Virus record (IMG/VR): IMGVR_UViG_3300028553_001971
Coordinates: 1 to 64,000 of that record
Length of the DNA stretch: 64,000 bases
Direction: 5' to 3' (one strand)
Source: a virus
The first letter of the stretch is position 1, and each line of letters opens with the position of its first letter. Of the stretch, positions 45,144 through 64,000 are shown in pieces. The position numbers and the translations under genes were made by a program. The notes beneath the pieces were generated by a model. That model saw nothing but the letters and a program-made list of their open reading frames with translations. It had not been told where the DNA came from and ran no database searches.

Positions 45144-46403
45144 TTATTGGTATTTTATGTATACCGGTTGATTAACAACAAAATTTATTGGTGAACCCGA
45201 AATCAATACAAGTTGTCCCGCTTGAAGTGGTGCTGTTTCATCATGGAAGAAGTTAGAACCATCAACCGCGAAACTATTTGTATTACCACTATAAGTTGCC
45301 GTAGCACCACTTTGAGAGAATGATATTGAATAAGAACTTGTTGTTAACAAGTTGGAATAATAACTGTATCTGCTTGTACCACTAATGTCAACATAACTCC
45401 AATAAACCGCTCTATCAGAAATTCCGAATTGATTTGGTGTTGTAATACCTGTTGATGTTATGTAGTTTAAGAACACTGTTTCACCGGTAGGTGGAGTGTT
45501 AAAATTCGTATTCAAATCATACGCAAAACCAAGTAATGGTCCTCCTGATGGAGTTACCGTTGGTGTTGGTGTAGTACTCGGACTAAGACCAGGTGTTACT
45601 GACGGTGTTGGTGTGGGCGATTGAGTCGCCTCAGGAGTTATTGAAGGTGTTACCGAAGATGTTGGTGTAGGACTAACAATCAAGGAACTAGTCGGAGTAA
45701 TAGTGTTTGTTGGAGTAACTGATGGACTTACTGTTATACTCGGTGTAATTGTTTGAGTTGGTGTTAAAGAATTTGTCGGAGTTACTGTTGGTGTTACTGT
45801 AACTGTTGAAGTTGTCGTTATTGTTGGAGTTGGTGTTTGAGTTGATGTTGGTGTTTGAGTTGGAGTTTCAGTTGGGGTTGGGGTTTGAGTCGCTGTTTGT
45901 GAAGGTGTGTTAGTTGGTGTGTATGTTGGAGTAACTGTAGGAGTTGGTGTCTTACTTGTTGTTGGAGTAAGTGAGTTTGTTGGCGTTACTGTAGGTGTTA
46001 ACGAGTTCGTGGGGGTTGAAGTTTTAGTAGGTGTAACGGTTGGAGTTGAAGTTTTGGTTACAGTTGGTGTCGGTGTTTGTGTTGTAGTACTAGTTGGTGT
46101 TACAGTGTTTGTTGGTGTGAGTGATGGAGTTAAACTTATTGACGGTGTAACAGTCGGCGTTGGTGTTGGAGTTACGGTATATGCAATTGATGTGATACCT
46201 GTTATCACACAATTTTCATCATCCACAACTTTAACCATGTAACTATCACCATTGTTGTACGGTGATGGTATATCAAATATGTATGGTAAATCGCCAGTCA
46301 CAATAGTTGATATGTAAAAGCATGAGGTACCACCACTTTGACAGATATAAACATCATATGGTGACGTTCCTGTAAGAGAATTGATTGTAACTTTTATTGC
46401 CAT
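45144..46403 (-). CDS. Thr-Pro-rich virion protein (419 aa)
   Basis: The N-terminal domain ('[20 protein letters not shown]', 13-32) is paralogous to that of the 215-aa protein downstream. A long Thr-Pro-Ser linker (78-286) with '[13 protein letters not shown]' units follows, and a separate C-terminal domain (287-419) of beta-rich appearance. The linker is a strong candidate for O-glycosylation. It abuts the 1367-aa gene by one base, so the genes are co-translated. Confidence 0.72.
45546..46172 (-). repeat. Thr-Pro coding repeat (419-aa protein)
   Basis: A GT-rich minisatellite-like region, on the plus strand mostly variants of GTTGGTGTT and GTTGGAGTT, codes for about 209 residues of Thr-Pro with Ser, Val, Asn and Leu. 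No exact longer period was noticed. Confidence 0.9.
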
Positions 46404-46404
46404 T

Positions 46405-49400
46405 TTAACATTCGGTTATTGTTGATGGTGTAATACTTTTAACCATCAAAGGACTTGTTGATACCGTATCAGGTAATGAAGTGTAAGGACAAATATCACA
46501 AGTTGACGAGTTGTATACTTTAGAACCTGTTGTTTGACCTTGTTGGATTGTTACTGTAAGTTCAGTAGTACTGTTACCTAAACAGTCAAAAGTTTCCATT
46601 TCAAATACCACTTGTACGGTTTGTGTTGCAGCTACAGGAATTCCGTTATTTAATAATGTAACCGTTATTTTATTTTCTGTTCTTGTATATCCTCCACACT
46701 GGTCAGGTAAGTTATTATTATAATTCGCATCATCCCAAGAAATACAAGCGATTTGACTATTAGTACCTGTTGAACCAACACAAGTTTCACAATCTTGGTA
46801 AACAACTGTTTGTAGTCCCGCGAAATAATCACCACTGTAGTTTATGATGTTGGTATTACCCACAGGGTAGTAACTTTGGTATTGTCCAACATATACCCAA
46901 CAATTACCTTCTGAGTCTTTGAATGATTTAGTTGGTGTTAATGCAAATTCAACAAATGAAGTTTGAAGAACTGTTGTCTGAGAATATCCAAAACTATTCT
47001 GAGAACAAGATTGGAATACATATATCCATGCCACGTTAGTTGATGATGGTGTTGGTGTTAATGTCGGTGTAATTGAAGGTGTTGGTGTCATTGTTGGTGT
47101 TAATGTTGGTGTTGGTGTAAACGCAACTTCACAATCCACACAATTACCATACATGGCTTTAACTTCACTAACGGTTGAGTTAGAAGATAAATTCTCATCA
47201 TTTCTAACATAAGTTAAACAGAAGATATCCCCGTTAAGTACTCCTAAGAATGTTGTACCAGCAACTAAAGGTGTTCCACTAAACACAAGTGAATCATTTG
47301 TATAGAACTCAAGGTCACTTTGACAATCCTTCAATACTTTTGTGGTTACACAAGTAAATGCATCATCCACAAATCTGTATGTCACAGCCCCAGCAACATC
47401 CACAGTTCTTGTTGGACTTAAAGATAATGTTGGGGTTGGTGATGGAGTTTCAGGTAAGAATCTTTCAAAATCAAAATCAATACCCGTATTACATGTAGGT
47501 GTTGATGGTGTCGGTGTTGGCGTAACCGCAAACTTAGTAAATTCAAAATTAACTACGTCACAAGTTATTGATGGTGTTGGTGATGGATATGGAACATAGT
47601 CACAATCAAAATACGCAACAAAATCTAAAGTGTTACAATTTATCGGCGAAGGCGTTGGTGTTGGACAAATTCCTGTTGTAAAGTAGTTGGCTGAAATGTC
47701 AGGACAAGGATTATAACATGGGTGTGCTCCCTCTAATAAACAACTACCACCCAAAGTATCACTTAAACACCAAAACGAACCTGTGTAGTAAATGTAACCT
47801 GTTGTAACACTATCTCCTGTATAATAATATCTTGAGTTATATGTTCCCCCAATTTCATAGTTACCTGAGTAATCTACCAAATCAGGTAGACTGGTTCTCA
47901 AGCAAAATTCTGTAGTTGCACACACACCCACCGATGGTGTTGGTGTTGGAGTAGCATTTGGGGTTCTTGTTGGACTTGGTGTTGGATTAATTACACAAAT
48001 ACCTGTTTGAACCACAATTACCTCAGAAGGTGCAATTATAGTATCTTCACAAACACAATATGTTGTTACCTCTAAAGGTGCCAATTCAACGGTCAATTCA
48101 TTTCCATAACAATCAATGTAACTAACTTCAGCAAAGGTAGTGTCACTAGTGTTTGTTATATCATATTCCAAACAATTACAAAGAATTGTTGGGGTATCTG
48201 TTACTGAAGGTGTGATAGTTGGTGTAACCGAAACACTTGGTGTTATAGATACTGATGGTGTAACGGTTGGAGTTGTTGTTGGAGTAACTGTTGGTGTTTT
48301 TGTAACTGTTGGTGTAACAGATACTGATGGCGTAACAGAAACCGAAGGAGTTACCGACACAGAAGGTGTAACTGATGATGTAGGTGTTAGTGTCGGTGTA
48401 ACACTTGAAGTTGGCGTTGTTGTTGGAGTGTTGGTTGGGGTTATAGTTGGGGTTGGTGTCAAAGAGGGACATACGTATGGTTGTAACGTAAAACAATCAT
48501 TACAAGTTAAATAAAACGTAAGTGTATGTCCAACAGCATTATAAATTGGACCACTTGCAACATATGGTATTACTGTCGCACACCCTGTAAATGAAGGTCC
48601 TGTAATACCATAGGTATCACCCTCATTTAAAATACCCGAAACATTTTGGAATCTAAATACGTTACTTGGGTTACAACAATCTTGAAATAAATAAATGTCA
48701 TAAGGTTCCGATGGAGTAACCGTAGGAGTTACCGTTGGAGTTACTGATATACTTGGTGTAATAGAAGGCGTGTTTGTAGGAGTTACCGTTGGAGTCGTTG
48801 TTGGCGTATTTGTGGGAGTATGTGTTGGTGTTACAGACTCTGTTGGAGTTGGTGTAATTGTTGGCGTTGATGTCGGTGTATCCGATGGAGTTACCGATGC
48901 CGTAATTGATGGTGTATTAGTAGGTGTAGAAGTTGGTGTGTCTGTTGGAGTAACCGATGGTGTGACTGTTGGTGTAACAGAAGACGTTGGAGTTATTGTA
49001 TTAGTTGGAGTTATTGTATTAGTTGGAGTAATTGTATTAGTTGGAGTAACTGTTGGTGTTAAAGATTCTGTCGGAGTTACTGACGGTGTATTGGTTGGTG
49101 TTGTTGATGGCGTTAATGGTGGTGTACCTGTTGGTGTAACAGAAGACGTTGGAGTTATGGTATTAGTTGGTGTAATTGTTGGGGTAACAGTGTTGGTTGG
49201 TGTAGTACTATTTGTAGGAGTCACCGTTGGAGTTACGGATTCTGTTGGTGTCACAGTAACTGACGGTGTTAAAGAACTTGTTGGCGTAAGTGAAGGTGTA
49301 TTTGTAGGAGTATTGGTTGGTGTATTTGTAGGAGTATTTGTTGGTGTAAGTGTTGGTGAATTTGTAGGAGTATTGGTTGGTGAATTTGTAGGAGTATTTG

Positions 49401-50508
49401 TTGGTGTTAAACTATTTGTTGGTGTATTGGTAGGTGTGATGGTTGGAGTATTTGTTGGTGTAAGTGTTGGTGAATTTGTAGGAGTATTGGTTGGTGAATT
49501 TGTAGGAGTATTTGTTGGTGTTAAACTATTTGTTGGTGTATTGGTAGGTGTGATGGTTGGAGTATTTGTTGGTGTTTCAGTCGGTGTTGGTGTTAATGTT
49601 GGTGTTGGAGATGGACAAATAACACACTCAGAACAATTTGAGAAAATTTCGGTAGATTGTATTAAAACAGAACCTGTACCACCTAAAGTAACACTCTGAA
49701 CTTCCCAACAAGTGCCTAAATAAGAAATAACATTACCATTTATTGGTACCGTACATCCCGCAGCATCAATTGATGATGTATTTGTACCATCACAACAATC
49801 TATTAACGTTGCTGTCCAATCAAAACAAGGATTAACTCCTTCACACTCAACACAAGAATTATGAAAAGTCTTGTAAACACCAATAGAAGCCCCTGGTGTT
49901 CCTGAAATAATTTCAAAACAACATCCATCAACATCATATACAAGTCCAACACTTGAACTCGCATTTGGTACCGTAATGGTTAATTGTACAGTACCAGTAC
50001 AACAGTCTTCTACTAAAACATCAGTTAGAGTTTGTCCAGGAGATATTGTTGGTGTTGGAGTTTGTGTAGGAGTTTTTGTAACCGTTGGTGTTACAGTTGG
50101 CGTTTTTGTTTGAGTGGGTGTAACTGAAGGTGTTGTTGTTGGTGTTCTTGTTGGTGTTCTTGTTGGTGTTACAGTAGGTGTTTTTGTTTGAGTTGGTGTT
50201 GGTGTTGGTGAAGGAATTAAAGTAACCGCCAATGAACATGCACCAAGACCACACGCAGGGTCAGTACAATCAGTTGCGACTAACTGTAATGATGTTACTG
50301 TTCCAACAAAAGTACTATTTCCAGAACCAGGATTAACTAAAGATGGTCCGTATACAATCTCAAAACAAACACCACCGCCGCCTACAGCCCTGAAAACATC
50401 ACCAACAGAAATAATTCCCGATGGATATAACGGACTTGATACACTGTTAAGAGTAACAATATTAAAAGGGTTTTTACAACACTGTAATTGAATATATGCG
50501 GTTGCCAT
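46405..50508 (-). CDS. Giant Thr-Pro-rich virion protein with Cys-rich modules (1367 aa)
   Basis: The 1367-residue protein consists of at least six Cys-rich modules of about 60-75 residues (for example '[12 protein letters not shown]', '[12 protein letters not shown]', '[12 protein letters not shown]', '[11 protein letters not shown]'), each with a central C[FW]-x-[EIV] and a closing 'C-x-x-C', separated by Thr-Pro linkers. The longest linker is about 300 residues. The modules look disulphide- or metal-stabilised; the linkers are probably extended and possibly glycosylated. A tail-fibre or long-spike role is inferred from neighbours. It is the first gene of the virion row. Confidence 0.72.
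48710..49613 (-). repeat. Long Thr-Pro coding repeat with a perfect 114-bp duplication
   Basis: GT-rich tandem coding repeats in the 1367-aa gene cover about 300 residues of Thr-Pro with Asn, Ser and Val. A 114-bp block (about 49341-49454) is repeated exactly at 49455-49568, and short flanks extend the identity. It codes a 38-residue unit and looks recent. Confidence 0.92.
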
Positions 50509-50572: not shown

Positions 50573-50797
50573 ATGAGATTAATAAAGGAATTCTTCAATA
50601 TATTTATAATTGTGAGACTTTTAAAAACAATCAAGAAAGTAATTGAGGAGGCTGAGGATAGATATCTCTCAGCATGTGAAAATAATGTTCCATTAAAAGA
50701 GTTGGACAAACTTGAGGAGAATTATAAAAAATCACTAAAGTTAATGGAGATGTTAGAAACAAAATCTCCTGAAAAAACAATCAAAAAGAAATCTTAA
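50573..50797 (+). CDS. Small coiled-coil protein (74 aa), plus strand
   Basis: The product has a hydrophobic N-terminal helix (IKEFFNIFIIVRLLKTIKK) followed by charged heptads (Glu, Lys, Leu) and a Lys-rich end. It could be membrane-associated by the first helix. The end overlaps the kinase gene by 17 bases, convergently. A minus-strand frame over 50524-50709 is a poorer candidate. The function is unknown. Confidence 0.5.
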   Translation: MRLIKEFFNIFIIVRLLKTIKKVIEEAEDRYLSACENNVPLKELDKLEENYKKSLKLMEMLETKSPEKTIKKKS

Positions 50798-51557
50798 ATT
50801 TCTCATCGGGTAAGGATACTCCTTTTTTACTTACCACATCTGAACAAACCTCGTTTGCAAAAGATATTGATTGAATTAAGTCATTTGTTTTGATATAGTA
50901 GGATACAAATGATGCAACAAAAGTATCACCAGCGCCACTAACATCTATAGTATCTTGTGGTTTTGGTGACCTATAAATACTACCCATATACATCGCTCCT
51001 TTAGAACCCAAAGTTATTATAAATTTATCGGGATGTTCGTCAACCAAATTTTTATTGTTATTATATTCTATTTCATTTTGTTTGACAAAAGAAATATTTT
51101 CAATAATATCCCAACTCAATTTCTTCTTAGTATCTAAAATAGATAAACTAGCAATTTTACTTATATCACGAATCATTTGTTCACTAACATATCCCTTATT
51201 ATAATCACTTATTATAACAACATCGGATTCCATGATAGTTTTTTTCTGTTCAGGTGAAAGAAAATTCAAACTTTCACATGGTTGTAATTCACCCTCATCA
51301 ACACGTGTAATCATTTGATTACTTTTTTTCTCAACATATCTTGTTTTTTCAATTTTATTGTGTTGATACCAATGAACAATATCACCCTCAGGTAATAGAG
51401 TTTTTAAGTTTTCAACAACATTACCCGCCATACCATTGTTGGTGGTTGTTTGAATCGGGTTCAATACCGGAACAGGTGCCTCAGGACACAATCTTTTTAT
51501 TTCACAATACACAAATCGGTCAACACAAAGTTCACCTATAACTAAAATTTTTGCCAT
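50781..51557 (-). CDS. PfkB-family sugar kinase, HldE N-terminal domain-like
   Basis: The 258-residue protein matches the kinase half of HldE/RfaE: 'RLCPEAPVPVLNP' (22-34), 'KTRYVEKKSNQMITRVD' (71-87), 'VVIISDYNKGYVS' (113-125) and the C-terminal 'DVSGAGDTFVASF' (205-217) with the catalytic Asp. HldE's kinase phosphorylates D-glycero-beta-D-manno-heptose 7-phosphate at C1. The matching nucleotidyltransferase is a separate gene (52949-53356), so the two HldE halves are unfused here. It is slightly shorter than the bacterial domain (about 310 aa). Confidence 0.83.
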   Translation of the reverse strand: MAKILVIGELCVDRFVYCEIKRLCPEAPVPVLNPIQTTTNNGMAGNVVENLKTLLPEGDIVHWYQHNKIEKTRYVEKKSNQMITRVDEGELQPCESLNFLSPEQKKTIMESDVVIISDYNKGYVSEQMIRDISKIASLSILDTKKKLSWDIIENISFVKQNEIEYNNNKNLVDEHPDKFIITLGSKGAMYMGSIYRSPKPQDTIDVSGAGDTFVASFVSYYIKTNDLIQSISFANEVCSDVVSKKGVSLPDEKFKISF

Positions 51558-52345: not shown

Positions 52346-52952
52346 TAATTTTTTGTCCCCGAGGCATTATTTCACCTCTACGACAAACACTAATATACCA
52401 GTGATAATCTAATAGATAAATATTATGTGGATTTTTATTCAAACGAATACTACCATTTATTTCATTTTCCCAAGGATTCTCGTTAGGTAAAACATTATCT
52501 TTTAATTTACTTTTTCTCCAAAGACCAAATTGATGGTTCTGAGTATATTCAGAATCTTGAGCAAACTTTAATAAATTATCTTTAATTTTAATGGTTTTTA
52601 TTAGATTAATATTTTCCTTAATATGTAATTGGTCCATTTTATATTCTTCAAACATTTCAAGAATATTATCCTTTAATTCAAAATCTTTAATACACCAAAA
52701 ATCCTCTTGCATATAAAATACAAGTTCAGATTCAATTTGTTCTAAAGCAATTAATAGTCTTTCACCCCACTCACCTTTACCAGTTTTAATGTGAGTAACA
52801 TCATTCACAAAATCAGGTTCTTTTTCTTCAGATAAAAAGATAATTGGTCCGTGATTTTTACAATGTAAATTAAATAAGTGATACCATGGATTCCAAAATT
52901 TGGAATATGAATCCATTGAATGTAATATTACTGGTATCTCATTAATTTTCAT
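52320..52952 (-). CDS. Glycosyltransferase-like protein (210 aa)
   Basis: The 210-residue protein opens with 'VILHSMDSYSKFWNPW' and contains 'LVFYMQEDFWC' in the place of a GT-A metal site, followed by a helical region and a C-terminal 'YLLDYHWYISV'. It is probably a small GT-A-type enzyme, but I do not recognise a named family. It overlaps the GT-D gene by 26 bases and abuts the nucleotidyltransferase gene (4-base overlap). Confidence 0.55.
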   Translation of the reverse strand: MKINEIPVILHSMDSYSKFWNPWYHLFNLHCKNHGPIIFLSEEKEPDFVNDVTHIKTGKGEWGERLLIALEQIESELVFYMQEDFWCIKDFELKDNILEMFEEYKMDQLHIKENINLIKTIKIKDNLLKFAQDSEYTQNHQFGLWRKSKLKDNVLPNENPWENEINGSIRLNKNPHNIYLLDYHWYISVCRRGEIMPRGQKIIEKYGINF

Positions 52953-53356
52953 CTATCTCTCAATATTTTTGTTGTAGAGAACTCTCCTACTTTTGGAAAA
53001 AAGATAACTTGTTTTGCGAACTGACCACCAATAACTTCTTTAGTTTCGTATTCACTACCAACAACTAAGATATCAGGATTCCATTCTTTAATTTGTCTTT
53101 CAAGTTCTTCCCTTGTTCCAAATCCAACCACACTATTAACACCTTTAATCTTAGACATAAAATATTCTCTGTCCTCAAAAGAATTGAAGGGTCTATTATG
53201 TCCCTTAAATTCTTTTATTCTTTCATCAGTGTCAATCCCTACTCTTAAAGTACCAAACTTTGACGCAAATTGAATGAGTTCAATGTGCCCTCTGTGAAGA
53301 ACATCAAAAGAACCATTAACCCAAACCTTTATTTCGGTTGACTGTCTCCCTTCCAT
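52949..53356 (-). CDS. Nucleotidyltransferase, HldE C-terminal domain-like
   Basis: The 135-residue protein matches the adenylyltransferase half of HldE: 'VNGSFDVLHRGHIELI' (13-28) holds the HxGH nucleotide motif, 'FKGHNRPFNSFEDREYFM' the middle block, 'DILVVGSEY' the next, and 'GEFSTTKILRDR' the closing S-T-T-[NK]-I signature. HldE uses ATP to activate heptose 1-phosphate to ADP-heptose. The N-terminus overlaps the cupin gene by 28 bases. Nucleotide preference cannot be read from sequence. Confidence 0.85.
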   Translation of the reverse strand: MEGRQSTEIKVWVNGSFDVLHRGHIELIQFASKFGTLRVGIDTDERIKEFKGHNRPFNSFEDREYFMSKIKGVNSVVGFGTREELERQIKEWNPDILVVGSEYETKEVIGGQFAKQVIFFPKVGEFSTTKILRDR

Positions 53357-53718
53357 ACGCGATAAGAATCAGAATCAAAATGTTGTGTTGACACTTCAAA
53401 TACGGTTCCATCGGTCAAAGCCTCCAACTGGTGTGGTTGACCTGGTAATTGTCTTACAGTATCACCAACTTTTAAATGTTGCTCAATGACTTCAGCGGTT
53501 TTGGTGTCTATCCATCTATAGATAAATTCACCTTCATCAACATACCAAGTCTCATCTTTTATTAGGTGGTAGTGCATTGAAAATTTCGCACCTTTTTTGA
53601 ACACTAATAGTTTACCACAATATAATTCGTTATTCACGAATATCACTTCATGTCCCCATCCTTTGGGAACATTACACCCTTCACATTCAATTGCGTTAAT
53701 TACCTTTGGTTTTTCCAT
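53329..53718 (-). CDS. Cupin-fold protein, phosphomannose isomerase type II-like
   Basis: The 129-residue protein has the cupin motifs 'KFSMHYHLIKDETWYVDEG' (His, His, Glu metal ligands, then Gly) and the second motif 'LPGQPHQLEAL'. It opens 'KGWGHEVIFVNNELYCGK', as in the C-terminal cupin of mannose-1-phosphate guanylyltransferase/isomerase proteins. It could be a sugar-phosphate isomerase or epimerase supplying the cluster. It lies between the nucleotidyltransferase and sulfotransferase-like genes. Confidence 0.75.
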   Translation of the reverse strand: MEKPKVINAIECEGCNVPKGWGHEVIFVNNELYCGKLLVFKKGAKFSMHYHLIKDETWYVDEGEFIYRWIDTKTAEVIEQHLKVGDTVRQLPGQPHQLEALTDGTVFEVSTQHFDSDSYRVWKGDSQPK

Positions 53719-53719
53719 T

Positions 53720-54472
53720 TTACAAATTTATTTTTTTATAACCTAAGTCACTAATTAAATGATGTAATTCATCATCAGATGAAATCAAGTCTTTCATCTT
53801 ATCACTTAAGTTTAATTCATGATATCTTTCTTCAACTTTATCCCATGTTTGAAAAGAACTTTGACTTCCTTTAATACCGTCTAACCCATAATGGTCTTTG
53901 ACACCAAAAGTTTCAAACAAAAATTTATCACGAACTTCTTTATTACTAATCCAATCTTCAAACTTTAAAAAAGATACTTGGTTGTTTGCACAAGCCCTTG
54001 CATGACTCTTCCAACGTTCAATGAATATCTCATCAACTTTAAAAAGATGTGGTTCTTGAGTGTCCCATTTTGTAAAAATGGTTCTCTCATTTGAACGAAT
54101 ACGTGATGATAAATTATTATAAAAATCTCTTAAAAAACAAACCCGACCTAAATGGTCTATATTATATTCGTTTCTTTTTTCAAGTGATAATGGTGCCTTA
54201 TAAATTCTATCTTCATTAAAGATAGTATAATCATAAGGAGCGTCTTCATAATTGACAAAAATTAAACCAATAGATTCTTTATGTTCATCTAAAAATTTAA
54301 AACTTAATGGTATATCGTGGTTTGCCTCACCTAAATGAAAAAAATTAGTTCCTGAAGCATTAATCATTTTGAATTTCCACTCTAATTGGAAACCAACTAA
54401 ATTTCTAATAATCCAATTTTTAATTGAGTGGTGTCCTGAACGGCTTAATGCCATTGTTTCGTACATTCTCAT
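53720..54472 (-). CDS. Sulfotransferase-like P-loop protein (250 aa)
   Basis: The N-terminus 'MALSRSGHHSIKNWIIRN' resembles the PAPS-binding loop of sulfotransferases ('RSGSxxL...WI'), and a later 'VCFLRDFYNNLSSRI' resembles the 3'-phosphate motif (R-D-[PF]). The rest is helical and aromatic. It might add sulphate to a glycan, but substrate and activity are uncertain; a kinase-like P-loop is an alternative. It overlaps the epimerase gene's stop by 4 bases. Confidence 0.5.
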   Translation of the reverse strand: MRMYETMALSRSGHHSIKNWIIRNLVGFQLEWKFKMINASGTNFFHLGEANHDIPLSFKFLDEHKESIGLIFVNYEDAPYDYTIFNEDRIYKAPLSLEKRNEYNIDHLGRVCFLRDFYNNLSSRIRSNERTIFTKWDTQEPHLFKVDEIFIERWKSHARACANNQVSFLKFEDWISNKEVRDKFLFETFGVKDHYGLDGIKGSQSSFQTWDKVEERYHELNLSDKMKDLISSDDELHHLISDLGYKKINL

Positions 54473-55287
54473 TTTTTCTCAAGATATTCTTTGTAATCTT
54501 TTATTCCCATTTCTAAATCCCACTTGGATTCCCAACCATTCATCCATTTTGATTTATTACTACACGTATAGAATTGATATCCATTTGGAATTACATCTTC
54601 TGATGTATAACCATATTCAATACCCATATTATTAAGGACATCTTCAAAGGTTCTTGCGGTACCACTACCTACTTCATAGTATTTACTACCCAATTCTTCA
54701 TAGTTTTCCAACGCATGAATGTTGGCTGAAACAATATCTTTGATGTAAACAAAATCTCTTTGTGGTTTTTTCGGGAACAGTGTTATTTTTTCACCTTTAG
54801 TATTCTTTATAAACATCTGATAAGCAACGGACGCCATTTTACCTTTGTCTTCTTCTCCTGGTCCATAGACATTGAAATATCTAAGAGCAATGCCTCCATT
54901 GGATATTACATATCCCTCACCAACATATTTACTCCAACCATATAAGTTTGATGGATATAAATTATTAGTTCCATAATTCGCAGCAGATGATGAGTAAATC
55001 ATTGGTTTGTTATTCTTAACACACCAATCCATTATGATTTTAGTTGATTCGTAATTACGAGTCATCATATAATCAACATTGGTTTCTAAAGTATCTGAAC
55101 ACGCTCCAACATGGAATACCGCATCATAATTCATACTTTCAAGTATTTGTAATAATTTTTCACCCCAATTTAAGTTTAAAAAATATGAATCATCAAATTG
55201 AGTGACTAAATAACCATCTCTTTCAAGTTGAAATGCTAATGATTTCCCGATGAAACCTCTTGTTCCTGTAACAATAACTTTTTTCAT
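54469..55287 (-). CDS. ADP-heptose 6-epimerase-like (HldD), SDR family
   Basis: The 272-residue protein is a strong match to HldD/RfaD: Rossmann 'GTRGFIG' (8-14), 'AVFHVGACSDTLETNVDYMM', the catalytic Y-x-x-x-K in 'YGWSKYVGE', 'LRYFNVYGPGEEDKGKMASV' and 'RDFVYIKDI'. HldD turns ADP-D-glycero-D-manno-heptose into the L-glycero form for LPS and protein glycosylation. It diverges from the SET gene and leads the minus-strand sugar operon at this end. Confidence 0.88.
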   Translation of the reverse strand: MKKVIVTGTRGFIGKSLAFQLERDGYLVTQFDDSYFLNLNWGEKLLQILESMNYDAVFHVGACSDTLETNVDYMMTRNYESTKIIMDWCVKNNKPMIYSSSAANYGTNNLYPSNLYGWSKYVGEGYVISNGGIALRYFNVYGPGEEDKGKMASVAYQMFIKNTKGEKITLFPKKPQRDFVYIKDIVSANIHALENYEELGSKYYEVGSGTARTFEDVLNNMGIEYGYTSEDVIPNGYQFYTCSNKSKWMNGWESKWDLEMGIKDYKEYLEKK

Positions 55288-55339: not shown

Positions 55340-55747
55340 ATGACATTGAATATTCACCCTCCCCAAAAAATTTATGTAAAAAATTCACCTGTACACGGAT
55401 TAGGTGTTTTTGCAAGTGAAAAAATTAACAAAGATGAAATTTTTGAAGTATGTCCAATTTTGTCACTACCAATGAAATTCGGTGAAGTAAGTCCTTTGTT
55501 TATTGACTATAGATTCAATTGGCCATCGGGAACTTCAGATTGGAAAGAACAAGTTATTTCTTTAGGGTTCGGTAGTCTTTATAATCACAGTGAAAGTCCA
55601 AACGCTTATTGGTTTTCAGATAACGAAACAAGAACATTTAAATTTGTTGCACATCGTGATATTGAACCAGAAGAAGAAATTTTTGTTTGGTATGGTGATG
55701 TTAACTATTGGAACGATGGTAGGACATCAATAGAGGTTATTTCTTAA
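55340..55747 (+). CDS. SET-domain protein
   Basis: The 135-residue protein is a compact SET domain: 'SPVHGLGVFASEKINKDEIF' (17-36) near the N-terminus, 'FGSLYNHSESPNAYW' with the conserved N-H-S-x-x-P-N, and 'IEPEEEIFVWYGDVNYW' with the E-E-[IL]-x-x-x-Y-G close. SET enzymes methylate lysines of proteins using SAM. The target is unknown; the phage also codes for an H1-like protein. It lies on the plus strand between the HldD-like gene and the fusion gene, overlapping the latter's end by 11 bases. Confidence 0.85.
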   Translation: MTLNIHPPQKIYVKNSPVHGLGVFASEKINKDEIFEVCPILSLPMKFGEVSPLFIDYRFNWPSGTSDWKEQVISLGFGSLYNHSESPNAYWFSDNETRTFKFVAHRDIEPEEEIFVWYGDVNYWNDGRTSIEVIS

Positions 55748-57536
55748 AGGCAATTGAGACACCTTTTTCTCTATAGGTTTGAAATCCCTTTTCAATTAAA
55801 AAGTTATTAATCAATTCTCTCTCCTTGTCACTTGAGTTATTATATTCATAAATAATAATGTCAAGATGTGATAATTGTTCATCCGTTAATGACATTATTA
55901 ATTCAAAATCAATACCTTCCACATCAGTGTGAACCCAATTAACATCAGGTGTTATTAATTCAGAAAATTTAATTGATTCTCTAACAGTTTCAGTTATTGG
56001 TTCTGTCTCCCAATAATCAATAACTCTTTTTACAACAGTGTTTGTATACCCTTTACCACCTTCGTAAAAGACCGTATCAGTTCCATCTTTAGTAACTAGT
56101 TGATTTATAAATTTTAGATTCTCAAATGACGAGTAATTTTTAATTAACTCATTGAATTGTTTTTTACTAACCTCAATAAGTGTTATTTCGGATAACTTAT
56201 CAATCGCAACAGGAACCCATTCACCAAATTCACCATTATGAGTTCCAACAACAACACCTTTAGATTTTTCTTTGTTTTTACAATAGTTCCACAACTTTTT
56301 GTAAATAAAATCACCATCAGTATTTACATCCCATTTTCTATGATACACCAGTTCATCTTGATTGTCTTTGACAACAACATCGACAATTTCAGTATCAGGA
56401 AATGTTGCCCAAGAATCTGAATATAATTTTACATCCCAAATTTTACGCTGGTTAATTTGTCTTTTAAATTCAAATGAAAATGGTAGTTTATCTTTATTAA
56501 ATACTCTAATCAAATCTTTAGTGTTTATACGTATTTCGTGTGAGTAATCTATTTCAAAAGGTATTTCATCGTAGTAAAATATGTTACGATTTGTTTTTTT
56601 TATGGTATCCGAATAATCATAAGTCATTTCACCATCAAAAATTACAAATTCATCTATTTTAGTTGAGTCGTAATCTAATTCAATTACCACCGTGTCATTA
56701 ATCTTGAAGTTATGTGTATCTCCGTTAATATTTAAACTAAAATCAATATTTTCTTTGACATCATAGAAGAAAATTTTTAATTTACCGTTAATCCATCCTT
56801 TTGTTGGTCCATCTTCTAACCAAATTTCCCCATCATCGTTCTTATTAAAGTATAATTTATACTTCTCATTCTTAGAGTAATTAAAAAAATCTGTGTCCTC
56901 CCAATAATAAATTAGGTCTTTAACGGGTTGGTTTGATGTTGGTATATTGTATTTATTTTTCCATTTTAAAACTTCACCTTCTGCGACACCATTTGTTCTC
57001 AAATACTCATCAAGTTCTATTTCACTAACAATTTTTTCCATCATAGGTCTATCAAAAACCATAAAGTGTAAAGTTGTTTCCCATAACGTATCAGGATTAT
57101 GTGGGTCTCTTCTTGGGTGGATGATATTTGTAGTGTCGTTAGTTAGTTCGTTTTCTACAACGTCATCAATTACTAAGTCATATATCATATGATAAAAAAT
57201 GTCATAATCATAAGATAATGCAATTTGAGATAACTTTTTAACTTGGTATAATCCAGCCCATCCATAATCCGCCAAATTGTGGTGCATTTTAACCCACCCT
57301 TCATCAGTATAGACTGACTTCCAAAAAGTAAAAGAACGAACAGGCCAAAGCAATAAAGGATTTTCTTTAGTAAAGAAAACAAAATCAGACAATTCAATAA
57401 TTTCTGATGGTAATGTTAATGGACTTATTACTAAAACATCTAATCCAAAAGATTTTATTTTAATAATATTTTCTTTTAGAATTTCAATTTTTTCTATTGT
57501 GTCACAATATGTACTAATTAAAACTATTTTTTTCAT
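55737..57536 (-). CDS. Glycosyltransferase-FkbM methyltransferase fusion (599 aa)
   Basis: The first 200 or so residues ('MKKIVLISTYCDTIEKIEIL', then 'DIFYHMIYDLVIDD') resemble the GT-like protein at 59567-60568. A beta-rich linker follows, and the C-terminal 170 residues form an FkbM-type SAM methyltransferase: 'GVVVGTHNGEFGEW', 'VNWVHTDVEGIDFELI' and 'LDIIIYEYNN'. A fusion would couple sugar transfer with O-methylation. It overlaps the next gene by 4 bases. Confidence 0.68.
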   Translation of the reverse strand: MKKIVLISTYCDTIEKIEILKENIIKIKSFGLDVLVISPLTLPSEIIELSDFVFFTKENPLLLWPVRSFTFWKSVYTDEGWVKMHHNLADYGWAGLYQVKKLSQIALSYDYDIFYHMIYDLVIDDVVENELTNDTTNIIHPRRDPHNPDTLWETTLHFMVFDRPMMEKIVSEIELDEYLRTNGVAEGEVLKWKNKYNIPTSNQPVKDLIYYWEDTDFFNYSKNEKYKLYFNKNDDGEIWLEDGPTKGWINGKLKIFFYDVKENIDFSLNINGDTHNFKINDTVVIELDYDSTKIDEFVIFDGEMTYDYSDTIKKTNRNIFYYDEIPFEIDYSHEIRINTKDLIRVFNKDKLPFSFEFKRQINQRKIWDVKLYSDSWATFPDTEIVDVVVKDNQDELVYHRKWDVNTDGDFIYKKLWNYCKNKEKSKGVVVGTHNGEFGEWVPVAIDKLSEITLIEVSKKQFNELIKNYSSFENLKFINQLVTKDGTDTVFYEGGKGYTNTVVKRVIDYWETEPITETVRESIKFSELITPDVNWVHTDVEGIDFELIMSLTDEQLSHLDIIIYEYNNSSDKERELINNFLIEKGFQTYREKGVSIAFKK

Positions 57537-59026
57537 AACATAAATCCAAATCTATAATCTTTTTTAACACCTAAAATTTCTTCAACACTTTTTTTAGTTA
57601 TAATAATACAATTCTTATAATGCGTAATTGATTCAATATTTTGGTGATTTTTAACCCTACTAAAGTTAGAGTTTATTTTGTGTGGGACTGAAGAAAAATA
57701 ATCAATAACATTATAATTACCAATCTCATATCCATATATGGTTTCTTTGGGATTCCAATAGTTACATTCAATATCTTCAATGATGTAAACTCCACCTTCT
57801 TTTAACATATTTTCAAATAGGTAATTAAATGTTTCTATTTGGTGTTGTGGTTGGTGACTTCCGTCATCAATAATAACATCACACTGACCTATCAAATTAA
57901 ACATTCTTTCCAAGTCTTCGATTTTACTTTGGTCACCTTTATACATAATACCTCTTTCTTGATTTCTTTCTTCAGAGATATCCATAGCGTAAATCATACC
58001 GTTTTTAAAATATTCAATCCACATTCTAAAAGACGCCGCTTCGCTACCAGAACCAATTTCAAATAATTTTATTTTTTTATTACTTAATGGTTCCAAAAAC
58101 TTTTCATAAATTCTATCATATCTATGTTCCAATACTTTGTCTGTATTGTATTTTAGACCCAGACCATACATATCACTATTGTTCTGATTTTCAAGAATAA
58201 TATTTACAACCTCATCAATAGCATCTTTATAATCACTGTAAGGTCTAACACAATTAACATCAATATAAAAACCTTGTTTCAACTTATCTAAATCATACAC
58301 CCCATATTTTTTTTGGTTTTCTATTTCACCGTCCCATTTTAATTCTACAGGAAAGTTATGTCTTTCAATTCTCCTTGGGGTTAAAAATTTACTATAATGC
58401 CCTCGTTTTAATTTGATGATTTCAACATCGTGTTGATTGGTATTTACACAATCTGAAAAATAGAACTCATCAATCAACCACATAATTTTATAACCATCTT
58501 TGTAGTTTGAGTGTCTATTCATAAATTCGTCAAAAGAACAATCAGAATTTAAAATTTTTGTAAAAGTTTTACCCTTACCTGCGTTGTAGATATAACCATA
58601 CATCTCTTGTTTGAATGGTAGTGGTTCTTCTTGAAACAAGTCATTTGATTCAGGTCTGCTTAAGTCATATGCATCACTCGACATGATAACTAAAGAATCT
58701 TCTGAGTAGTGTTTTAGTTGTTCGACAAAATAATTTTTATTAATCATCAACATATCTAAATCACCACAAATACAAACATCATCAGGAAAGTATTTGGTAC
58801 CGAACATTCTAACGGTACAGGCTTGAATTGCTGTGTGTATTCCTTCAACAAATTTAACATTTTTTACCAATCCGTTTCCATCATCATAGAACTCACTATC
58901 TTCATCAGAAATTTTAAAAAGGACTGGTTCCCAACCAAATATTTCTCGACACAATTTAGCCTGAATTGGCCAAAACTCTAAGAAATAAGAGTCATCACTT
59001 GCAAATATTATTTTTTTAATTTCCAT
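57533..59026 (-). CDS. Glycosyltransferase-SAM methyltransferase fusion (497 aa)
   Basis: The start at 59026 (MEIKKIIFASDD) keeps the overlap with the next gene to 11 bases; a longer start at 59047 is possible. Residues 1-270 form a GT-A-like domain with the metal site in 'CICGDLDMLMINK' (about 88-100). Residues about 295-495 form a class I methyltransferase: 'KLFEIGSGSEAASF', 'IYAMDISEERN' and 'DVIIDDGSHQPQHQIETF', as in macrocin O-methyltransferases. It is the second GT-methyltransferase fusion in tandem. Confidence 0.75.
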   Translation of the reverse strand: MEIKKIIFASDDSYFLEFWPIQAKLCREIFGWEPVLFKISDEDSEFYDDGNGLVKNVKFVEGIHTAIQACTVRMFGTKYFPDDVCICGDLDMLMINKNYFVEQLKHYSEDSLVIMSSDAYDLSRPESNDLFQEEPLPFKQEMYGYIYNAGKGKTFTKILNSDCSFDEFMNRHSNYKDGYKIMWLIDEFYFSDCVNTNQHDVEIIKLKRGHYSKFLTPRRIERHNFPVELKWDGEIENQKKYGVYDLDKLKQGFYIDVNCVRPYSDYKDAIDEVVNIILENQNNSDMYGLGLKYNTDKVLEHRYDRIYEKFLEPLSNKKIKLFEIGSGSEAASFRMWIEYFKNGMIYAMDISEERNQERGIMYKGDQSKIEDLERMFNLIGQCDVIIDDGSHQPQHQIETFNYLFENMLKEGGVYIIEDIECNYWNPKETIYGYEIGNYNVIDYFSSVPHKINSNFSRVKNHQNIESITHYKNCIIITKKSVEEILGVKKDYRFGFML

Positions 59027-59570
59027 AAAACTTATTAATAAACCCATCTATATCATCGGACCACATATCCATTGCATTGTCTCTAATTTTTTGTTCATCC
59101 CAATCCCACCAAGAAATTGATAATAGTTTTTCAATTTGCTCTTCGGTAAATCTATACTTAACAACTTTAGCAGGATTACCGGCAACAATTGCGTATGGAG
59201 GAACATCTTTAGTAACTGTAGAACCAGCCGCCACTATAGCACCATTACCAATTTTTATACCTGACATAATCGTTGAGTTAGCACCAATCCATACGTCATT
59301 TTCAATAATAATGTCACCTTTGCAGGATGGGTGGCCCATATCCATATGCATTTGAGCAATCTCGTGATTTACAGGACCCCAAAGTTGTGATGAGGTTGTA
59401 ACCCAGTCAGGTCTGTGATTAGCGTGTAAGAAAAAATTACAATCCCTACCAATTGAATTGTATTTACCAACCCTAACATTGTATTGGTCACTCCATGAAA
59501 TTATGTTTACATGTCGGTCAAAATAGGTACCCCTATCTGCATGCCAAAGATGTATGTTTTCTATATTCAT
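59016..59570 (-). CDS. Hexapeptide-repeat acetyltransferase (CatB-like)
   Basis: The 184-residue protein has left-handed beta-helix turns ('DIIIENDVWIGANSTI', 'IKIGNGAIVAAGSTV') and closes with 'PYAIVAGNPAKVVKYRF', the typical end of xenobiotic/sugar acetyltransferases. 'NFFLHANHRPDW' holds the catalytic His region. It should use acetyl-CoA to O- or N-acetylate a sugar. It is overlapped by both neighbours in the sugar operon. Confidence 0.85.
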   Translation of the reverse strand: MNIENIHLWHADRGTYFDRHVNIISWSDQYNVRVGKYNSIGRDCNFFLHANHRPDWVTTSSQLWGPVNHEIAQMHMDMGHPSCKGDIIIENDVWIGANSTIMSGIKIGNGAIVAAGSTVTKDVPPYAIVAGNPAKVVKYRFTEEQIEKLLSISWWDWDEQKIRDNAMDMWSDDIDGFINKFYGN

Positions 59571-60568
59571 ATTTGAAATGATTCTTTATATCTGAAACTA
59601 CTTTTTTTGAAGATATCAATTTCTTCATTACTATTTAATTTAAATTTATTTCTAATTTCACCATTTTCAATTATTAATATACTTTGGATTTCATTTACAT
59701 TACCTAAATTAACTAATCTCCAATGGTTTAATAATGTTGTTGGTATATTAACAATCCTATCATTATTAAGAATTATAATGTGTTCAACACCATTTTGATT
59801 TTTTGTATTCCAAACAACAAATCCAATAGTATCGTTTAATTTATCGTAAAAAGGTACCGCCCATGGTATAAACTTAACACCAACTTGTCCATCAATTATA
59901 CCGAATTTATTTCCATTTACTTCGAGACTATGTCTGTCTTTTTTAAAAACTTTTCCACTATCTTCCAATATTTTCTGAAGCATCAATTCAGGTGATTTAG
60001 TTTCTGATTGTCTAATCATCTCAACTATTTTTCCCTCATCTAAATTAATCAGAAACTTATCTAATGTTGGTAACAAATATGATTGGAAACTTCCGAATAA
60101 AATGTCATCAACATTTTCTCTACTATCAATATAAATTACAGAATCAAATTCATCTAATAATACAGAGTTATTTTTAAACTCTTCAATGTTTTCAATATTA
60201 CAATCGTACTCAATGTGGTGAACTTTGTTATATCCCATATTTTTTGCTAACGAAAATCCCAATATCATCATTCTCCATATTGCAAGATGTGTATTTTTTC
60301 CAGTTAAAAATGAAGACTGAATTCTTCTTTCATTATTTGGATTAAACCAAGGTTGGTTAAGTAAATCCCAATCAGTAAGTATCTCATTTTTACTATCATA
60401 AAAACAATAATTAACTTTATTTTGAATATCAAAAGGGATTGGTGTATGACTAACAATTAAAGTATCAAAAGTATCTTTAAATTTTAAGAGTGAATTTACT
60501 AAATTTCTTAGAATATTTTCTCTATGTTCGTCAGGACAATAAGCGGTAATTAAGATTAAATCTTTCAT
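59567..60568 (-). CDS. Glycosyltransferase-like protein (333 aa)
   Basis: The N-terminus 'LILITAYCPDEHRENILRNL' and 'KVHHIEYDCNIENIEE' (an acidic cluster where GT-A enzymes have DxD) resemble the N-terminal domain of the fusion at 55737-57536, so the two are paralogous glycosyltransferases. The C-terminal part is strand-rich and unlike a methyltransferase. It shares one base with the PglD-like gene and overlaps the acetyltransferase start by 4 bases. Confidence 0.62.
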   Translation of the reverse strand: MKDLILITAYCPDEHRENILRNLVNSLLKFKDTFDTLIVSHTPIPFDIQNKVNYCFYDSKNEILTDWDLLNQPWFNPNNERRIQSSFLTGKNTHLAIWRMMILGFSLAKNMGYNKVHHIEYDCNIENIEEFKNNSVLLDEFDSVIYIDSRENVDDILFGSFQSYLLPTLDKFLINLDEGKIVEMIRQSETKSPELMLQKILEDSGKVFKKDRHSLEVNGNKFGIIDGQVGVKFIPWAVPFYDKLNDTIGFVVWNTKNQNGVEHIIILNNDRIVNIPTTLLNHWRLVNLGNVNEIQSILIIENGEIRNKFKLNSNEEIDIFKKSSFRYKESFQI

Positions 60569-61146
60569 TATAATATTTTTTTTGTTGGGACACCGACATA
60601 AATTCCTAGTTCTTCTATGTCTTTAACAACCGCACCATTCATACCTATAGTTGTTAATGAATGAATTGATAATTTTTCCTTAATTGATGAATTATTACCC
60701 ATATAAACTAAATCATGAATTGTAACATTACCTGAAACAATTGCTCCTGGCATCGCACTAAAATAATTACCAATTTCACAATCGTGACCAATATGGTTAC
60801 CTCTATTTAGTAACGCATGTTTACCTATTTTTATATTAGTTGTTAAGATTGAATGAGCACCTATAAAACTACCTTCACCAATTTCAACATCATCACTCAT
60901 GATTAAAGCAGTTGGGTGAATCCAAGTAAAATATTTTGTTTCTTTTGGTAATCTTTGAACTATATCAAACCTATCCTTTGAGTCTGCAACTGCAACCATC
61001 AAAGCATATTTTTTTGGGTTAAACTTTGATAATGGTAGTGTTCCTTCAACAACATATTCATCGTCAACAAAACAAGTAAGTTTAACTCCCATTTGAGCCA
61101 TAACCTCACGAGCGTGTCCCCCATACCCAATCAAAGCTTTTTTCAT
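60568..61146 (-). CDS. PglD/NeuD-type sugar acyltransferase
   Basis: The 192-residue protein has the PglD N-terminal fold ('KKALIGYGGHAREVMAQM', Gly-x-Gly-Gly-His) and left-handed beta-helix turns ('DDVEIGEGSFIGAHSI', 'KIGKHALLNRGNHIGHDCEI'). It should N- or O-acetylate an amino sugar nucleotide. The DegT-type aminotransferase next to it would make that amino sugar, the same pair found in bacillosamine-type pathways. It overlaps that gene by 4 bases. Confidence 0.87.
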   Translation of the reverse strand: MKKALIGYGGHAREVMAQMGVKLTCFVDDEYVVEGTLPLSKFNPKKYALMVAVADSKDRFDIVQRLPKETKYFTWIHPTALIMSDDVEIGEGSFIGAHSILTTNIKIGKHALLNRGNHIGHDCEIGNYFSAMPGAIVSGNVTIHDLVYMGNNSSIKEKLSIHSLTTIGMNGAVVKDIEELGIYVGVPTKKIL

Positions 61147-61787
61147 TGTTTATAAACATCAAACTTTGATAAATCAGGATATGGTAATTCCAAATCCTCG
61201 TTATGTTTTTTACTACCATCAAGATTGTAGAATTGGTTCATAAGAAGTAATCCTCTTGCAGCCAATTCAGGCATCATGTAGAAGTTCCACCCTATCATAT
61301 CTAAGTAATCGTCATGATAAGAACATTCACGTCTTCCACTATATCTCGCTCTTTTAAACCAGTGATACGCCTCAAGACTATCTGTCAATATTGCACCACC
61401 CTTACTTAATTTGAAATGTTTGTAAGGACCTGTGAATGAAACACAAATGTGTTGGTTTGGTTTATACATATCAGCTGTAAAACTTAATGCCGAATCCCAA
61501 ACATTACTTCCCTTGAGTTGGTACATACCTTTAATTGTTTTACCTTCAATAGGTTCAAAATCAACTTTAAGACCCGCATGAATAATCTCACACGGAACCG
61601 AAGGATATGTTCTACAAGGAATTCCTACTTTATCATCAGTAATACTTTTTTTAACGTTTTTTTCATAATACAACGCCAAAAACAAAGCATTACTCATATT
61701 ATCTACGGTAATCACATATGGTGCACCCGTATAATCTGAAAGAGCTTTCTCAAAATCTTCTGTAATTTTATAAATACCATTTGCCAT
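61143..61787 (-). CDS. Short DegT/DnrJ-type sugar aminotransferase
   Basis: The likely start is Met 61787 (MANGIYKITEDF), giving about 214 residues. It has the N-terminal PLP fold ('PYVITVDNMSNALFLALYY', 'VGIPCRTYPSVPCEIIHAG') and 'GPYKHFKLSKGGAILTDS', where a Lys stands at the PLP site. The family is usually about 370 residues, so the C-terminal domain is missing. It may be a natural short form or a truncated copy; the reading frame has no internal stop or frameshift. Confidence 0.65.
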   Translation of the reverse strand: MANGIYKITEDFEKALSDYTGAPYVITVDNMSNALFLALYYEKNVKKSITDDKVGIPCRTYPSVPCEIIHAGLKVDFEPIEGKTIKGMYQLKGSNVWDSALSFTADMYKPNQHICVSFTGPYKHFKLSKGGAILTDSLEAYHWFKRARYSGRRECSYHDDYLDMIGWNFYMMPELAARGLLLMNQFYNLDGSKKHNEDLELPYPDLSKFDVYKQ

Positions 61788-61843
61788 ATGTTGAAAAAAT
61801 AGAATAAAATAATATATTTTCAATAATCAACTTAACACTTTAT

Positions 61844-64000
61844 ATGGAAAAACCAAAAATTTATGTTCATGGGTCTTACATCGGAACAACAGGGTATAAT
61901 AACCACACAAGAGATTTTTTAAGAGAACTATCAAAACACACAAAAGTTAAAGTAAGAAACTTTACTGTTGGTAACAGTTGGAATGGTTATAACTTAACCC
62001 CCCATGATAACGAACCTTACATTAATGATGTCGATAAATCAATGTTATACAAACAGATTTTGTATAACTCTGAAGGTAAGTTAGAGGACTTTCTAATTTA
62101 CCCTGACAAGTCAAAAGAGTTTTTTCAAGACGTTAACATTGTATTAAGTGAAACAAACCATCATATCTTCTATCAAGATTATGTTGGTCCAAAAATAGCG
62201 TATAACGTTTGGGAATCAACTTTACAACCTGAAGAGTTCTTCAACGAACTTTTAAAGTACGACGAGATTTGGGTTCCAAGTAAATGGCAAAGAGAATGTA
62301 CTATCAACCAAGGCGCTAACCCAAACAAAGTTAAAGTTGTACCTGAAGGTGTTGATATTCATACATTCTTTCCTGAAGAAGTTGAAAAGTTGGAACAATA
62401 TAATGATGGTCGGTTCAAGTTTCTATTGTTTGGTCGTTGGGATTACAGAAAATCAACCAAGGAAATAATTCAAACATTCTTAAAGACGTTCTCACCTGAC
62501 GAACCCGTAGATTTGGTTGTGTCGATTGACAATATGTGGGGTGAAGAAATGGATGGTTATAAAACCACTGAGGAACGATTGGAGGCTTACGGTCTAACTG
62601 ACCCAAGAATCAAAATGATTCACTTCCCAACAAGAGAAGATTATATCAAATACCTTAAAACAGGTCACGTGTTTGTTTCTTGTGCAAGGTCTGAAGGATG
62701 GAACTTACCACTTATCGAAGCCATGGCTTGTGGTACCCCGTCAATTTATTCTGAGTGTTGCGCTCAAATGGAGTTTGCCGAAGGTAAGGGTATTCCTGTA
62801 AAGATTATTGGTGAAAAACCGGCGAATTCAAATGACTACGGTAGATACACAATGAGCGATTTACCAGGAAACTATTATGAACCTGATTTCAATGATTTAT
62901 CAGAAAAGATGAGGTTTGTTTATAAAAATTACAAACAATGTAAATTAGACGCAATTAAAGATGCTATTGAGATTCATAAAGAATTCTCTTGGGAAAGAAT
63001 TGGTGAAATCGGTTATAATACCGTTGTTGAGTTCATGAAAAACCATAAAAAGACCGACGTTGACAATAATAAAATTTCTGTTTTTTATCTTGACGGCCCA
63101 AAGGTTGATATATCAGGTGATGAAGATAGAACTTATTTTGTTGAGTTTTTAGATGAGAAAGATAATGTAATTCATTCTCATACCATGAAAAACAATCATT
63201 GGGTTCAATGTGGTAGAAAATATTATACAAAGTGGAGGATTAGAGTTAATGGTAAAATTGTTGGGGAACTTGATTTAACAGGAAAAAGAGTTCTTATTTC
63301 ATTTGAATCAAAATCAATTGGTGATACAATTGCTTGGGCACCATATGCAATAGAATTTCAGAAAAAACATAACTGTCAGGTAGTTTTGAGTACCTTCCAC
63401 AATAGTTGGTTTAAAAATAACCCTAACTATGAAAGTATTGAATTTATTGAACCAGGACGTTCTACAAACTGTCACGCACTTTATAGAGTTGGTTGGTTTA
63501 TGTCTGAAGAAGGAAAATGGAATAAGTTAGACAGTTATCCGAACTATATTCAAACACTACCACTTCAACAAACCGCAACAGATATTTTAGGTCTTGATTA
63601 TGTTGAACGTAATTATGGTATTTTCTTTGATGTAAAGGAAAGACCATTCAAAAACAAATACGTTGTCTTGGCTCCCGAATCAACAGCGGGTTGTAAAGAA
63701 TGGACTTATGAAGGATGGTGTTACTTAACAGACCAATTAATTAAAAAAGGTTATGAAGTTGTAATTCTTACAACAAAACCATACTCTGTTAAAGGTGCGA
63801 AATGTATTTACGGAAAATCTCTCAATGATGCACTTAACATCCTTTATCATTCAGAATTCTTAGTATCCCCAAGTTCAGGCATGGCTTGGATGAATTGGGG
63901 TGTTGGTAAACATACCGTAATGATTAGTGGATTCACCCCCAAACACCACGAGTTTCAAACCAACATCACAAGAATAATCAACGAAAACGCTTGTAACTCT
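61844..64000 (+). CDS. GT4 glycosyltransferase fused to O-heptosyltransferase-like domain (partial)
   Basis: At least 719 residues are present; the gene runs off the window. Residues 1-400 form a GT4 enzyme: 'YVHGSYIGTTGYNNHTRDFL', 'LFGRWDYRKSTKEI' and the E-x7-E in 'SEGWNLPLIEAM' (about 285). A small beta domain follows ('YLDGPKVDISGD'), then from about 480 a GT-B half like the autotransporter heptosyltransferases (TibC/AAH): 'SKSIGDTIAWAPY', 'LAPESTAGCKEW' and 'SPSSGMAWMNWGVGKHTVMI' with 'GFTPKHHEF'. The last residues 'NENACNS' reach the first Cys of the expected metal finger. Confidence 0.8.
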   Translation, partial: MEKPKIYVHGSYIGTTGYNNHTRDFLRELSKHTKVKVRNFTVGNSWNGYNLTPHDNEPYINDVDKSMLYKQILYNSEGKLEDFLIYPDKSKEFFQDVNIVLSETNHHIFYQDYVGPKIAYNVWESTLQPEEFFNELLKYDEIWVPSKWQRECTINQGANPNKVKVVPEGVDIHTFFPEEVEKLEQYNDGRFKFLLFGRWDYRKSTKEIIQTFLKTFSPDEPVDLVVSIDNMWGEEMDGYKTTEERLEAYGLTDPRIKMIHFPTREDYIKYLKTGHVFVSCARSEGWNLPLIEAMACGTPSIYSECCAQMEFAEGKGIPVKIIGEKPANSNDYGRYTMSDLPGNYYEPDFNDLSEKMRFVYKNYKQCKLDAIKDAIEIHKEFSWERIGEIGYNTVVEFMKNHKKTDVDNNKISVFYLDGPKVDISGDEDRTYFVEFLDEKDNVIHSHTMKNNHWVQCGRKYYTKWRIRVNGKIVGELDLTGKRVLISFESKSIGDTIAWAPYAIEFQKKHNCQVVLSTFHNSWFKNNPNYESIEFIEPGRSTNCHALYRVGWFMSEEGKWNKLDSYPNYIQTLPLQQTATDILGLDYVERNYGIFFDVKERPFKNKYVVLAPESTAGCKEWTYEGWCYLTDQLIKKGYEVVILTTKPYSVKGAKCIYGKSLNDALNILYHSEFLVSPSSGMAWMNWGVGKHTVMISGFTPKHHEFQTNITRIINENACNS

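Follow-up and report, generated by a model that had tools for sequence, protein, structure and literature searches.

Introduction

TibC of enterotoxigenic Escherichia coli and AAH, which belong to the BAHT family, are known protein O-heptosyltransferases (PMC4358343, from which the TibC residue numbers and residue roles used in this study were taken). TibC requires a beta-hairpin thumb for its active dodecamer, and two thumb mutants were dimeric and inactive on TibA; Arg286 of TibC touches adenine and was required, and AAH, which has Ser at position 300, accepts both heptose isomers (PMC4358343). Viruses encode working NDP-heptose enzymes, without the phosphatase (Tang et al. 2024, in the account of PMC11461863), and the role of these viral enzymes was left open in that account. 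The virion proteins of mycobacteriophages are glycosylated (Freeman et al. 2023, as cited in PMC12619734).

This study analyzed a 64,000-bp stretch of DNA (the window), which comprises bases 1-64000 of a 67,251-bp virus record. An earlier note on the window had proposed that an open reading frame (ORF) at its end encodes a GT4 glycosyltransferase and an autotransporter-type O-heptosyltransferase of the TibC/AAH type in one phage protein. We pursued this ORF beyond the end of the window and analyzed its domains, its relatives, and its gene neighborhood.

A GT4 enzyme and a TibC-type enzyme are joined in one phage protein

The ORF starting at 61844 contained no stop codon before the end of the window and closed at 64135 in the record, resulting in a protein of 763 aa (Table 1). 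The same full-length protein, with an identical second half, is encoded by two virus contigs from other samples (L006 and L007); therefore, the fusion is not an assembly join. An assembly chimera was ruled out by these two contigs together with the many fused relatives.

Table 1. Positions of the fusion gene, its domains, and neighboring genes, numbered from the first base of the window and record
Feature	Position	Strand	Evidence
GT4-TibC fusion, 763 aa	61844..64000 in window; stop codon ends at record base 64135	+	TIGR04414, 215 bits; AF2 model
GT4 (GT-B) half, residues 1-400	61844..63043	+	PF00534, PHROG, E-x7-E
E284-x7-E292 motif	about 62693-62719	+	Alignment with relatives
TibC-type N-terminal beta-rich (barrel) domain, approximately residues 410-480	63071..63283	+	Strands in model, weak PF21129
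TibC-type catalytic domain	63284..64000, on to record base 64132	+	TibC alignment, Foldseek
Four-Cys iron-finger motif	63992..64000 in window; record 63992-64087	+	TibC alignment
FkbM-type methyltransferase	record 64132-64878, outside window	+	Profile matches
Collagen-like Gly-(Ser/Thr)-Ser protein, candidate acceptor	record 64921-67251, outside window, cut by record end	-	Pfam Collagen, 4.4e-33
Vat/CatB-like acetyltransferase, unknown protein, NeuD-like acyltransferase, DegT-type aminotransferase	59016..61823	-	Profiles
Two-part protein, C-terminal methyltransferase	57533..59047	-	BLASTP to Mel-JY01
HldD-type ADP-glyceromanno-heptose 6-epimerase	54469..55287	-	TIGR02197, 4.2e-57, 193.7 bits (cut-off 274.6)
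Cupin in heptose cassette	53329..53718	-	Beside kinase and HldC in other phages too
HldC-type heptose-1-phosphate nucleotidyltransferase	52949..53356	-	rfaE_dom_II, 3.4e-25, under cut-off
HldA-type heptose-7-phosphate kinase	50781..51557	-	rfaE_dom_I, 6.4e-36, under equivalog cut-off
Two Thr/Pro-rich, mucin-like proteins (419 and 1367 aa), alternative acceptor candidates	45144..50508	-	Composition

The profile searches bore out the domain reading of the earlier note. The first half, read there as a GT4 enzyme with an E-x7-E motif, matched PF00534 (Glycos_transf_1) at 8.9e-11 (42.1 bits; cut-off, 26.4) and a PHROG glycosyltransferase profile at 2.5e-28 over residues 7-388, and both E284 and E292 were invariant among 29 aligned sequences. 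The TibC/AAH-type half, taken as residues 410-763, matched TIGR04414 over residues 418-759 (E 1.5e-63) with 215 bits, above the curated cut-off of 200, and the sequence of the solved TibC (PDB 4rap) over residues 430-754 (1.6e-37). The barrel region scored 14.3 bits with PF21129 (TibC_1st), under its cut-off of 27; the model revealed strands there, and the fold match to TibC extended over the whole length. Assignment to the LPS heptosyltransferases (WaaC/WaaF) was rejected, with heptsyl_trn_I reaching 18.6 bits versus 215 bits for TIGR04414.

An AlphaFold (AF2) model of the fusion, built from 29 aligned sequences, had a mean pLDDT of 85.5 and a pTM of 0.56, a modest value that makes the relative placement of the two halves unreliable. 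In the comparison with TibC that the earlier note had proposed, the best PDB match in Foldseek was TibC itself (4rap; 1.7e-30, TM 0.82 normalized to TibC), and GT4-type GT-B enzymes ranked next. The GT4 enzymes 3oy2 from a chlorella virus, MshA, HepE, and PglA have their fold and E-x7-E motif in common with the phage half at 12-16% identity in structural alignments; the phage half differs from them in being joined to a TibC-type enzyme. The top structure matches in BFVD were multidomain viral UniProt entries of 924-985 aa from uncultured viruses, named Glycosyltransferase Aah/TibC, Methyltransferase FkbM, or glycosyltransferase family 1. These names are database annotations, and the entries were compared whole rather than domain by domain, with alignments long enough to cover both halves of the fusion.

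The second half of the phage protein has the fold, the catalytic Asp/Lys/Trp, and the four-Cys iron finger in common with TibC and AAH. It retains the counterparts of Asp110 (D494), Thr226, Lys230 (K618), and Trp305 (W682). The earlier note had pointed out that the window stops at the first Cys of the finger; extension past 64000 revealed all four (C717, C720, C736, and C748, aligned with Cys339, Cys342, Cys358, and Cys370 of TibC), only the first of which lies inside the window. Asp110, Lys230, Trp305, and the four Cys were invariant in 48 of 48 distinct viral domains, and the Thr226 position was occupied by Thr in 46 and Ser in 2. Throughout a 142-row viral alignment, in which 6 to 8 rows were gapped at key residue positions, the key residues were kept wherever lettered, except that Cys370 was replaced by Leu in one row and Thr226 by Ser in two. 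The metal finger is complete and the TibC match lies far above that of LPS heptosyltransferase I, so that neither of the outcomes named in the earlier note as refuting its reading occurred. The domain identities of the fusion are secure.

Besides the attached GT4 half, the phage enzyme differs from TibC in the thumb and at positions 286 and 300. The thumb segment 252-284 comprises 23 residues versus 33 in TibC, and this 10-residue shortening makes a TibC-like dodecamer doubtful; a smaller oligomer is predicted. Because the thumb mutants of TibC were dimeric and inactive, the phage enzyme would need another assembly or another kind of substrate. Arg286 is replaced by Ala, and Arg occupies this position in 6 of 48 viral domains, with T, V, L, S, or I in most viral copies; the position was read from a gapped alignment near the thumb. 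At position 300, Ser replaces the Pro of TibC, as in AAH.

The fusion is widespread in viral contigs

A scan with the second half identified 64 viral loci, and an alignment query returned at least 572 relatives, the 80 best of which were retained. A GT4 domain was present in the same ORF as the TibC-type domain in 125 of 138 viral loci, a share that may be lower among all viral TibC-type genes because the sample consists of the query's closest relatives. Nine of the other 13 begin at a contig edge, 1 is split, and 3 are stand-alone. Thus, the fusion of GT4 and TibC-type enzymes, described in the earlier note as separate proteins elsewhere, is not peculiar to this phage: it is widespread and is the usual form in the contigs of uncultured phages. 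Some TibC-type copies are additionally fused to methyltransferase, PIG-L deacetylase, or short-chain dehydrogenase domains. On the tree, the fusion label needs approximately 8 changes, at least 4 of which are forced by well-supported branches; a single origin of the fusion is not supported, with copies cut by contig ends blurring the label. Among cellular loci, 4 of 20 were fused, and one of these (L070) grouped with the viral copies in the tree.

At least three contigs filed as cellular (L071, L085, and L087) encode GT4-TibC fusions; their assignments are Thermoplasmatales, a deltaproteobacterium, and Nitrosotalea. All three fusions are short-thumbed with Thr at position 286, and they may be either cellular or proviral.

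Among the matches listed, which covered 40 of 138 records, the Microcystis phage Mel-JY01 was the only named phage matching both halves; the TibC half matched uncultured huge phages too. Mel-JY01, which has been cultured, encodes a GT4-methyltransferase-TibC protein close to a Gly-Ser/Thr protein of the same genome region, and it is therefore a phage in which the system could be examined. Our literature searches, which covered one library, found nothing on phage O-heptosylation or on Mel-JY01.

The Gly-Ser/Thr fiber ORF of Mel-JY01 (L003:1-3052, PP395634.1) lies on the plus strand, is at least 1016 aa long, and has a non-repetitive, structural-looking C-terminal domain. The deposited hypothetical proteins on the minus strand (1-651 and 739-2298) are probably antisense to it.

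Gly-Ser/Thr arrays accompany the TibC-type gene

BclA-type spore proteins of Bacillus carry collagen-like repeats that are O-glycosylated. The phage system resembles them in the proposed modification of such repeats and differs from them in enzymes, sugars, and organism. The collagen-like protein beside the phage fusion is at least 776 aa long and convergent to the fusion operon, and in its clean Gly-X-Y triplets X was Ser or Thr in 141 of 151 and Y was Ser in 149 of 151.

ORFs in which Ser and Thr make up at least 45% over 100 aa were present in 54 of 126 TibC loci, compared with 5 of 74 HldA loci and 4 of 129 random viral loci. Their density was 40.7 per megabase at TibC loci versus 4.5 at random loci, although the random loci are shorter (mean 8.6 kb) and part of the excess is therefore due to length. 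When loci were clustered at 60% identity, 15 of 24 representatives had arrays of the G[ST][ST]G type, compared with 1 of 129 random viral loci; at 29 of 56 loci, the distance between the gene and its nearest array was 0.2-1.5 kb. Conversely, a TibC-type domain was carried by 21 of 42 array-bearing records and by 0 of 37 random records, where one weak match (4e-6) was left uncounted. Among the 21, the match in G142 does not include the barrel region. For array-bearing records longer than 75 kb, the count was 13 of 15. The random sets were drawn with one 14-base and one 16-base pattern, since a primase query for control records had returned 6 loci only, and they are unmatched for length, habitat, and lineage.

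This association supports the Gly-(Ser/Thr)-Ser fiber of the phage as the acceptor; it is not proof, as the loci are mutually related and the array protein adjoining the window is cut. The mucin-like proteins in Table 1 have a Ser+Thr content of 33-39%. Elsewhere in the window (5217-15548) are three giant collagen-like tail-fiber proteins of 1098-1189 aa in which Gly-Ala-Gln and Gly-Xaa-Thr triplets are abundant, and one of them has a C-terminal Peptidase_S74 chaperone domain.

Heptose-synthesis genes and other genes of the sugar island

The window encodes homologues of HldA, HldC, and HldD; none reaches the curated equivalog cut-off, but the homology is clear. The earlier note on the fusion mentions neither these genes nor the Gly-(Ser/Thr)-Ser protein beyond the window. 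The GAGDT motif of the kinase is kept in the phage copies, and the GxFDxxHxGH motif of the nucleotidyltransferase is conserved. In other fusion-bearing phages, homologues of the kinase, nucleotidyltransferase, and epimerase form compact clusters, and the cupin gene sits with those for the kinase and nucleotidyltransferase. Among 50 viral records carrying the HldA-type kinase, 17 had a TibC-type match. Sixteen of these matches were strong (that in G057 does not include the barrel region), against 0 of 37 in the random set (p 4e-5, a Fisher value that is too small because related records were treated as independent). In the other direction, the kinase was present in 8 of 50 TibC-bearing records versus 2 of 37 random records (strong matches), which was not significant (p 0.12), and the HldC-type nucleotidyltransferase was present in 9 of 50. 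The scarcity of the kinase among TibC-bearing records suggests that many of these phages use host heptose or another donor. GmhA was not found in 50 related records, and the pathway would therefore need host enzymes. Compared with the viral NDP-heptose enzymes of Tang et al. 2024, the present locus differs in that a likely consumer of the product is encoded in the same genome.

The FkbM-type methyltransferase gene overlaps the stop codon of the fusion by 4 bases (ATGA). The same overlap occurs at L008-L011 and L069, unlike L012, where no neighbor of the fusion was detected. The methyltransferase of the two-part protein is homologous to the piece located between GT4 and TibC in Mel-JY01 (BLASTP, 46% over 208 aa, E 4e-52). 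A SET-domain protein (55340-55747, plus strand; PF00856, 8.8e-15) also lies within the island.

Proposed function and alternative explanations

On the basis of these findings, we lean, with slightly better than even confidence, toward an enzyme of a tailed phage that O-glycosylates protein in two steps: it would decorate Ser/Thr-rich fibers of the phage itself, probably with heptose, and its GT4 half would extend the first sugar. The TibC-type half would transfer a sugar to Ser or Thr of low-complexity fibers, foremost the neighboring Gly-(Ser/Thr)-Ser protein, and the nucleotide donor would most likely be ADP-heptose that phage enzymes provide at least in part. Onto this first sugar, the GT4 half would most likely place a second one, and the coupled FkbM-type methyltransferase and the nearby acyl- and methyltransferases may complete the glycan. 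We infer that the enzyme is active and that its sugar is heptose, and likewise the acceptor, the second sugar, and the order of the two steps; the processive transfer suggested by the earlier note is conjectural, and the thumb on which the TibC dodecamer depends is short. A fuller version, in which the phage makes its own activated heptose and the fusion coats the Gly-(Ser/Thr)-Ser fibers with a heptose-based glycan, maybe stabilizing or shielding them, in a widespread system, is tentative and falls somewhat short of an even chance. Mycobacteriophages, which likewise carry glycans on their own virion proteins, bear them on the C-termini of capsid and tail-tube proteins in the account of Freeman et al. 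2023 cited in PMC12619734, unlike the fiber acceptor proposed here.

Heptose, the sugar named in the earlier note, is likely, but the loss of Arg286 weakens this reading. The enzyme may instead glycosylate fiber proteins by using a different nucleotide or hexose donor, with the heptose genes serving another glycan. The residues found at the Arg286 position in most viral copies and the missing kinase in most TibC-bearing records are consistent with this explanation, as is the production of CDP- and UDP-heptose by some nucleotidyltransferases (PMC11461863); yet Thr226, Lys230, and Trp305 are retained, and the kinase-first test revealed co-occurrence with the TibC-type domain above random. We regard another donor as unlikely, though the least unlikely of the alternatives.

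The target may also differ. Phage glycosyltransferases can change host surface antigens (cited in PMC12619734), and two kinds of enzyme encoded in the island, NeuD-like and DegT-like, typically act on surface sugars; the fusion might thus alter host LPS, capsule, or proteins, for example excluding other phages. We consider this improbable: the second half is closer to the TibC branch, which modifies proteins, than to LPS heptosyltransferases, and Ser/Thr-rich, virion-like array proteins adjoin the gene. The same family membership argues against glycosylation of modified bases in phage DNA, for which DNA-modifying phage glycosyltransferases provide a precedent (cited in PMC12619734); no base-hypermodification gene was recognized among the proteins scanned, and we consider this explanation highly improbable. 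Modification of protein is likely, judging from the family of the enzyme. No autotransporter, the substrate of TibC/AAH-type enzymes, was recognized among the proteins of the phage record that were scanned.

If decoration of the phage's own fibers is correct, protein O-heptosylation, known from bacterial autotransporters, would be common in viruses too, and viral heptose synthesis, the role of which is left open in the account of PMC11461863, would gain a consumer and a proposed acceptor. Sugar-coated fibers would also bear on host recognition, stability, and the particle surface.

Two minor observations were made at these loci. A 250-aa protein in the island (53720-54472) has an N-terminal SRSGHHS that resembles a sulfotransferase P-loop by eye, with no Pfam support. 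At three loci, the gene directly after the fusion is also TibC-like but shorter, and it lacks the barrel region (L013:11044-11937, L015:11053-11931, and L064:11082-11924).
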